Assembly (NCBI GenBank): GCA_947581895.1
Contig: CANPWE010000008.1
Span: forward strand, 1 to 46,428
Origin: an uncultured Clostridia bacterium
GTDB taxonomy: Bacteria > Bacillota > Clostridia > TANB77 > CAG-508
Length of the DNA stretch: 46,428 bases
Reading direction: 5' to 3'
Both the position numbers and the translations under genes were made by a program. Under the pieces are notes generated by a model. That model made no database searches, had not been told where the DNA came from, and saw only the letters and a program-made list of their open reading frames with translations. The stretch's first letter is position 1. Each line of letters opens with the position of its first letter. Of this stretch, positions 10,996 through 46,428 are shown piece by piece.

Positions 10996-11025
10996 CAAAC
11001 CTGCTCACAAATAGCAGGTTTGCTT
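10996..11025 (+). terminator. Intrinsic terminator
   Basis: aaacctgct cacaaat agcaggttt followed by gcttttt. Confidence 0.8.
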
Positions 11026-11063
11026 TTTATAAACCAACAACTCATTCCCCCTCCTATAGAGTA

Positions 11064-11336
11064 GCCCAAAAACCCTAGATAATAATTGGTCTCTTGGGGG
11101 GAAAATTATATATTACTTTAAAAATGTGGCTTAAGTGGGGACCGGCTAGCTACAGAGAGTTATAATTCCCCAGACCACCACCACCCCAAAAACGTATACA
11201 CACTCCCTCACTGCCACACAGCAATCCGACCCTCACGCTCAGGAATTATTACTCTCTGTGCGCTGTTGGGAAACATTTTTAAAGTAATATATAATTTTCC
11301 CCCCAAGAGACCAATTATTATCTAGGGTTTTTGGGC
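11064..11336. repeat. Palindromic element copy C: perfect 64-bp inverted arms around a 145-nt G+C-richer centre
   Basis: Arm 11064-11127 (gcccaaaaaccctagataataattggtctcttggggggaaaattatatattactttaaaaatgt) is the exact reverse complement of 11273-11336; flanks agagtag / cggctacctgcaaaagc are shared with other copies. Confidence 0.9.
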
Positions 11337-11449
11337 GGCTACCTGCAAAAGCAAAAAATCCCCCAAATATCATTTTTTTAAATTTTCCTATTGATTTTTC
11401 CCCAAAAAAATGATACCATAATACACATAATATCAAGTGTACAAGAGAC

Positions 11450-11670
11450 CAGTAATAAACATTATTTTACTCAGAGAGATTATGTTTGGTGAAAATAATC
11501 TAAAATAAGTTTATGAATCTACTCTTCAGCTTTTAGTGAAAACTAAACCTCCTAATGCAAGGTTACACGCATTCTAAAGATATATAATTGTTTATCAATT
11601 TATATAAATTAAGGTGGCACCACGATACAAAAAATCGTCCTTATGAACTTCATAAGAACGATTTTTTTAA
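11450..11670 (+). promoter_or_regulatory. T-box leader of serS with terminator
   Basis: T-box sequence aaggtggcaccacg (11611-11624); terminator aaaatcgtccttatgaacttcataagaacgatttttt; candidate specifier tct (Ser) in tgaatctactc. Confidence 0.9.
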
Positions 11671-34700: not shown

Positions 34701-34890
34701 TGTAGAGTAGTCAAATTCAATAGTTATGTAATGCAGGAAAATATATTAATATGTAGTGGAGTGCGCAGTTTGGCGCCCCCACCTAACGTCTTCCACAAAA
34801 CCCAAACGCCAGCAAACGAACGGAATATTAATATATTTTCCTGCATTACATAACTATTGAATTTGACGGCTTACTGCAAAAGCATTAAAC
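34701..34890. repeat. Palindromic element copy B: perfect 42-bp inverted arms around a 72-nt G+C-richer centre
   Basis: 34711-34752 (tcaaattcaatagttatgtaatgcaggaaaatatattaatat) is the exact reverse complement of 34825-34866; flanks gtagagtag / cggcttactgcaaaagc. Confidence 0.9.
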
Positions 34891-43031: not shown

Positions 43032-43110
43032 TTAAATTGCTTTTCTATTATATCACAAATTAAAAAAAAAAAATAGCACAGAACTATAAAATTTCCATGC
43101 TAATTATCAC

Positions 43111-43182
43111 TATTCAACACTTCTCACATAACCAAACTTTGCAGAGTAGTCAAATTCAATAGTTATGTAATGCTTTTGCAGC
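43111..43182. repeat. Dispersed repeat partial copy D, overlapping the 3' end of the 43156-43698 gene
   Basis: tattcaacacttctcacataaccaaactttgcagagtagtcaaattcaatagttatgtaatgcttttgcag, near-identical to 46325-46396. Confidence 0.85.
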
Positions 43183-43698
43183 ATTAATTGCCTCTTTTAC
43201 AGCTTGTTCAGGTGTTGTAACTTCAATACATTTCAATCTTTTTCTTTCATCTATATATGTATTTGAAACCTTTTTAGCCCAACCTGAAAAATTTGAAACA
43301 GTTATTATAGGAATACCTGCTTGATATGCAATTGCCATTTCTGTTAAAGTACCTGAACCTCCTCCAATTGCAATAATTACATCACAAGATAAAACTAAAG
43401 TAAATTCTCTTCCACCACCAATGCCTAATCCACATGGAATAAGTACATCTGGTTTAAAATCCCCATAAATTTCTTTATCTTTTCCACCTGTTATTCCTAC
43501 TGTTAATCCTCCATTTTTATTAGCTTCTATTGCCGCATTTGTTGATAATGAGCTATATTCTTTTTCAGCTCCATATACTAAAATATTATTACTATTTGCA
43601 ATTAACTCTCCTAATTTTTTTGCAAAATTCAAAGCTTCTTCACTATAATCTAAATCAGCGGCAGAACCCATTATTCCTATCTGGATTTTTTTCATCAT
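43156..43698 (-). CDS. TIGR00725/LOG-like Rossmann-fold protein
   Basis: IGIMGSA, GGGREFTLVLSCDVIIAIGGGSGTLTEMAIAYQAGIPII. Confidence 0.8.
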   Translation of the reverse strand: MMKKIQIGIMGSAADLDYSEEALNFAKKLGELIANSNNILVYGAEKEYSSLSTNAAIEANKNGGLTVGITGGKDKEIYGDFKPDVLIPCGLGIGGGREFTLVLSCDVIIAIGGGSGTLTEMAIAYQAGIPIITVSNFSGWAKKVSNTYIDERKRLKCIEVTTPEQAVKEAINAAKALHNY

Positions 43699-46159: not shown

Positions 46160-46324
46160 ATGATGTAATTCAATATTTATTATATATATATTCATAATAA
46201 CAACCTTCTTTTTTAGTATATTAAATATCAATGTCAACTTTATGTGACTATTTCTATATTACCACCTTTTTAATACCTTTGTCAACACTTTTTTGATTTT
46301 TTTAAAATTTATCCATTTTTCTTA

Positions 46325-46428
46325 CTATTTAACACTTCTCAAACAACCAACTTCTGTAGAGTAGTCAAATTCAATAGTTATGTAATGCTTTTGCAGGAGG
46401 CAGTCAAAAAATCCAAGATAAGTATGGC
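46325..46428. repeat. Dispersed repeat partial copy E at window end, apparently joined to a second junction motif
   Basis: cttctgtagagtagtcaaattcaatagttatgtaatgcttttgcaggaggcagtcaaaa; the last part resembles the reverse complement of the right junction (cttttgcaggaagccgtcaaa). Confidence 0.8.

Follow-up and report, generated by a model that had tools for sequence, protein, structure and literature searches.

The bcr1, BOX and similar repeats of Firmicutes are dispersed, mobile, intergenic and able to fold, and in these traits they resemble the repeat family described here; we know of no report among them of cores conserved throughout a class beside perfect arms that vary freely. Prokaryotic MITEs are short, non-coding intergenic sequences with terminal inverted repeats, direct target repeats and a stem-loop, and the direct repeats fade with age (PMC10969869). 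The present family is likewise short, intergenic and non-coding, with terminal inverted repeats, target repeats and a stem-loop fold; it differs from MITEs in that conservation across species is highest in the internal tip, its arms co-evolve perfectly and the orientation of the core tracks the replication strand skew. GTAG-tagged REPs (PMC3733652) are also intergenic, of high copy number and marked by GTAG at the hairpin foot, but consist of 20–40 bp repeats, whereas the arms here are 43–65 bp long, 8 bp duplications are present and the genome contains no associated Y1 gene. Template switching between inverted repeats homogenizes the arms, creates stems and gives multi-base compensatory changes (PMC8794818; PMC8604942). 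The copying of one arm onto the other is the likeness to the present case; such hairpins were described in RNA genes and yeast coding DNA, whereas here a whole bacterial repeat family with arms of 43–65 bp is concerned. In integron attC sites, which are recombination hairpins, the strand relative to replication matters, and an inverted Vibrio cholerae array led to more excision and a fitness cost (PMC11023631); the analogy is one of orientation only, with no cassettes, arrays or integrase shown for the present family. Two features of the family are unusual: its arms co-evolve perfectly at the DNA level, and the orientation of its conserved core goes with replication.

The window analysed here (46,428 nt) is one entire contig of a 1.67 Mb Clostridia genome (G000) assembled in 94 contigs. 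The element under study, copy C, consists of the following parts.

11058–11063, + strand: left junction motif AGAGTA, immediately outside the arm; the same motif lies 5' of copy B and in most relatives
11064–11127, + strand: left hairpin arm, 64 nt; inner 20 nt conserved, outer part family-specific
11128–11151, + strand: class I core, 5' side of an asymmetric internal loop, GGCTTAAGTGGGGACCGGCTAGCT; near-invariant across 26 copies (mean identity 98.6%)
11152–11169, + strand: inner stem, 5' strand, ACAGAGAGTTATAATTCC (copy alignment and fold)
11170–11241, + strand: terminal loop, C-rich, G-poor and variable (copy alignment)
11242–11259, + strand: inner stem, 3' strand, GGAATTATTACTCTCTGT (copy alignment and fold)
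11260–11272, + strand: class I core, 3' side of the internal loop, GCGCTGTTGGGAA; mean identity of the 3' core 99.6%
11273–11336, + strand: right hairpin arm, reverse-complementary to the left one without mismatch
11337–11352, + strand: right junction motif, GGCTACCTGCAAAAGC (window and genome-wide matches, alignment of copies)

As a preliminary description of this DNA had stated, the 64 bp arms are exact reverse complements (100% complementary, 145 nt apart) and have no obvious sequence in common with the arms of copy B. Its observation that the bases outside the arms match copy B (AGAGTA on the left, CGGCTACCTGCAAAAGC on the right) also holds far beyond chance, the right junction CGGCTTACTGCAAAAGC giving four matches in the window at up to three mismatches against 0.04 expected. 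Segment 11040–11360 folded as ssDNA at −85 kcal/mol, compared with −28.4 ± 3.8 kcal/mol for shuffled sequences (z = −14.9). On one side copy C is preceded by a small membrane-like ORF with its terminator at 10996–11022; on the other side, ∼80 bp downstream, lies the T-box leader (11431–11645) of serS (seryl-tRNA synthetase; gene assigned by Pfam). A class I copy with different arms occupies the same serS site in a relative (G013), and another relative (G008) has the gene order of this site without a recognizable element. The terminal repeats and target duplication of copy C itself are no longer recognizable, and its outer arm shows only weak similarity to those of other class I copies (0.56; null 0.47, 95th percentile 0.57).

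Four further copies or fragments were located in the window.

34703–34883, + strand: copy B, a class II element with junctions, 43 bp arms (34710–34752 and 34825–34867) and class II core (repeat and motif searches)
3–86, + strand: right half of a copy of class III type, within which the contig begins (motif matches, comparison with relatives)
43104–43181, + strand: fragment of the left end of a copy; it overlaps a SLOG cluster4 gene (43156–43698, − strand) at the gene's 3' end
46319–46428, + strand: left end of a long-armed copy, within which the contig stops (motif and end matches)

The fragment at 43104–43181 may supply the stop codon of the SLOG cluster4 gene. Both ends of the contig (1–95 and 46319–46428) lie inside copies of the family, as do the ends of many other contigs of the genome, and the repeat family is thus a main cause of assembly breaks.

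Copies C and B are members, of classes I and II respectively, of a dispersed non-autonomous MITE-type element. A right-end probe (CTGCAAAAGYATTAAACA, up to three mismatches) had 129 matches genome-wide compared with five for the reversed control. Copy C as a query gave 38 matches in the genome, mostly to the core and inner arms (query positions 68–254) and many at contig ends. The genome-wide picture was built from searches and targeted stretches, and the genomes are fragmented MAGs in which many copies are broken at contig ends. Seven genomes belonging to the same genus contain class I relatives, compared with 0 of 43 related genomes outside it; the named carrier records are Clostridia MAGs of rumen and rabbit gut. 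The class II core (GTGCGCAGTTTGGCG...CGCCAGYAARCGAACGG) differs from that of class I and was present in eight of 16 genus members, with up to 96 matches each; a strict pattern gave none outside the genus among 117 genomes of the family. A third core class has motifs in common with class II (L059, L065). In viral contigs, searched with class I and class II patterns, class I had no match and five contigs carried one or other class II half-pattern; plasmids (class II query) and phages (class I query) gave no match. As far as tested, the element is confined to one genus of gut Clostridia, in which hundreds of these small transposon-like hairpins are dispersed, and as far as the libraries tested show the MITE-type family is new. 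The arms of copies B and C look unrelated chiefly because the two belong to different core classes. Other repeats were met beside the family: in one class I copy (L101, a G013 relative) a second long inverted repeat (GTCAATGGGGACGGAGATTTTTGACAC...) stands in place of the terminal loop and is apparently another mobile repeat nested in the tip, and in G007 a further repeat, GGGACACCTCCAAAAAACATCT, lies near class II copies (L222, L205) and forms long outer arms in L222.

The junctions are not the true transposon ends, which in related copies are situated 30–44 bp further out. In one relative (G014) perfect 8 bp target duplications abut ends starting GTTACARTTCAGG in 12 of 15 full elements (161, 283 and 75 bp), and other copies in this genome have the same junctions, GTAGAGTAG and CGGCTACCTGCAAAAG, inside an end that begins GTTACARTTCAGG. 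In G000 the outer end GTTACTATTTAACACTTYTCACAYAAC occurs in 47 copies against none in the control; two 230 bp class II copies have perfect 8 bp duplications (TGTAATAT, CCCTAATA), and two 69 bp deletion derivatives have their own (GTCTTTAG, TTCAAATT). GTTAC-type terminal inverted repeats are thus present in both genomes, as in MITEs, the perfect target duplication has a fixed length of 8 bp (12 of 15 elements in G014 and four in G000), and the element, at 69–283 bp, is too short to encode a transposase. In the 69 bp derivatives the left end is fused to the right arm at the common string ACATAAC, with loss of the hairpin and left junction. Since the 69–75 bp deletion derivatives carry their own duplications, the ends alone suffice for movement, and since the 69 bp forms moved without a core, the core is not needed for it. 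Outer ends are no longer recognizable in copy C or in most class I copies of genomes other than G000; these copies presumably once had GTTAC-type ends. The 8 bp duplications point to a DDE enzyme. No transposase was found between end repeats in G014, including a 2 kb pair on contig C17; the DDE families searched, ISL3 and IS256 (PF00872 and PF01610), were absent from nearly all carriers, do not track the element and were rejected as partners. The 2 kb pair (L255; G014:C17:9212-11192) flanks two small ORFs and is either a composite element or a coincidence; by eye we take the ORFs to be an MqsRA-type toxin–antitoxin pair.

The conserved unit includes the hairpin tip besides the junctions. Mean pairwise identity of the two core strands was 0.986 and 0.996 in 17 class I elements, chosen for an intact left junction, the identity of which is therefore inflated; in the same elements it was 0.60 for the right junction, 0.44 for the outer arms and 0.32–0.34 for the flanks (random 0.31). 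The core is kept at orthologous sites despite diverged flanks, and the variability of the terminal loop between the core strands argues against simple gene-conversion homogenization of the whole core. The core is probably a constrained, strand-specific signal, the conservation suggesting selection. No promoter or terminator signal above shuffles was found at the element. A terminator role of the hairpin was rejected because no T-run follows it on either strand; the only terminator found is that of the upstream gene.

The arms behave differently from the core: mean identity was 0.988 within and 0.545 between elements for class I, and 0.977 and 0.629 for class II. Of the 1412 arm pairs in 25 class I elements, 1394 were Watson–Crick, the rest comprising six G–U, seven A–C and five of transversion type; the corresponding numbers in 51 class II elements were 2135, 16, 18 and 15. 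Selection on RNA pairing should give more G–U than A–C pairs; no such excess is seen, and correction at the DNA level fits instead. Among unique copies, class I arms had at least two Watson–Crick types at 47 of their 53 positions and class II arms at 39 of 43, with transversion-type double changes at 46 and 36 of these, respectively. Orthologous copies (L004, L043, L047) show matched arm changes around a fixed core. In L059 the left flank is now the complement of the right end, and in long-armed copies the left arm holds the complement of the right junction or flank; both are explained by copying past the hairpin base, nested insertion or recombination being another conceivable route to the long-armed copies. 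The arms have thus most likely been kept perfect by DNA-level template switching at replication forks, as the pattern of matched changes suggests. Where the preliminary description saw conserved boundaries and exchanged stems, the junctions do recur around different arms, but an exchange of stems is not supported: the arms change together and continuously, also between orthologues. It had asked whether arm families are discrete; within a class the arms form a continuum (identity 0.23–0.98).

The orientation of the core is strongly biased. Judged by flank GC skew, 61 elements carry the core strand on the C-rich side and five on the G-rich side (p = 3e-13), the ratio for class I being 24:0. When gene layout and GC skew were combined, the ratio was 11:1 (three weak) between divergent genes and 6:0 (one weak) between convergent genes; the bias persists in both settings, so that read-through from neighbours is no explanation. 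Relative to genes in tandem the strand of the element is fixed (38 versus 5). Most of the 161 bp copies in G014 have 44 bp ends that are the same on both sides (one A/G position in some), yet are oriented ∼10:1. Copy C, like few others, is sense to both neighbours; it follows the wider window skew (−0.26), its own 3 kb skew being near zero. Orientation set by replication is the favoured rather than the sole reading, since the skew stands in for a mapped origin, GC skew correlates with gene direction and some copies are orthologous. Template switching is known to invert the spacer between perfect arms (PMC8604942), so orientation should randomize unless something prevents it. One tentative and rather doubtful model is that the core is a strand-specific ssDNA signal: the hairpin would fold on one template strand during replication and a host or transposon protein would read the two conserved internal loops, which would set orientation and retention after end decay, arm perfection being a by-product of the same folding.

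Several other explanations were weighed. A structured functional RNA, with arm pairing kept by selection on the RNA stem, would account for the conserved asymmetric core, the strong fold, the retention of the core at orthologous sites and the strand fixed relative to tandem genes (38 versus 5). It is nevertheless improbable: arm mismatches lack a G–U excess, the orientation bias also exists between divergent (11:1) and convergent (6:0) genes, promoter and terminator signals are not above shuffles, and the sole Rfam match in the window is the serS T-box, with nothing significant in the element. Assignment to an RNA family therefore fails on the Rfam and wobble tests. That the perfect arms are an assembly artefact might be suspected from the many copies at MAG contig ends, but the chance of this is negligible, as perfect arms occur within long contigs (up to 190 kb) in independent assemblies from several animals and orthologues show matched differences.

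The idea of a conserved integration site taking different hairpin cassettes came from the preliminary description and draws on identical junctions around different arms and three core classes. Its term 'modular element' is fair, since several species have these junctions around different arms and the terminal repeats that enclose them also differ. The integration site itself is very improbable: the duplications, where found, abut the outer GTTAC ends instead of the junctions, an empty junction was never seen (the 69 bp forms are deletion products, each with a target duplication of its own), arm divergence within a class is continuous and orthologous sites retain the class I core while the arms change. 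A REP/RAYT-like system, in which the hairpin with GTAG at its 5' foot would be moved as ssDNA by a Y1 tyrosine transposase, has in its favour that GTAG stands unpaired directly at the 5' foot in nearly all copies and that GTAG-tagged REPs form a known superfamily (PMC3733652). Such a system is highly improbable here, and the assignment fails on the transposase test: no PF01797 protein was detected in G000, the family being present in the non-carriers G001, G002, G009 and G010, and such hairpins are absent near Y1 genes; moreover, the 8 bp duplications indicate a DDE enzyme and the arms exceed REP size. A retron or RT-made hairpin was rejected, as RT genes do not track the element (no RVT_1 match in the carriers G004 and G008, matches in some non-carriers). 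At G000:C4:19131-19704 (L132, L135) an RT domain is split across two short open frames that overlap, and this may be a broken RT gene.

Copy C is best explained, with a probability of about 0.72, as an old and fixed member of a high-copy, non-autonomous MITE-type family of DNA transposons with GTTAC-starting ends, 8 bp duplications and a hairpin with template-switch-corrected arms. The ends, duplications, arm co-evolution, core conservation and orientation bias were observed directly. A transposase would act in trans on the GTTAC ends, inside which the proposed layout is junction AGAGTA, arm, asymmetric core, arm and junction CGGCTNCCTGCAAAAG. The fast-changing arms would remain mirror images through copying of one onto the other as DNA, most likely by template switching at the fork, and copying beyond the hairpin base would extend them into the flank. 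Core and junctions would be conserved for a separate reason tied to the direction of replication.

With dozens of long palindromes of various ages, the family is a natural series from which the correction of arms can be read off directly. Its many matched changes, which include transversion types and show no wobble excess, allow DNA-level template switching in bacteria to be told apart from RNA selection. A functional RNA is often regarded as proven by compensatory changes, and the family shows how this can mislead. The replication-linked orientation of an element with symmetric ends is a testable question.
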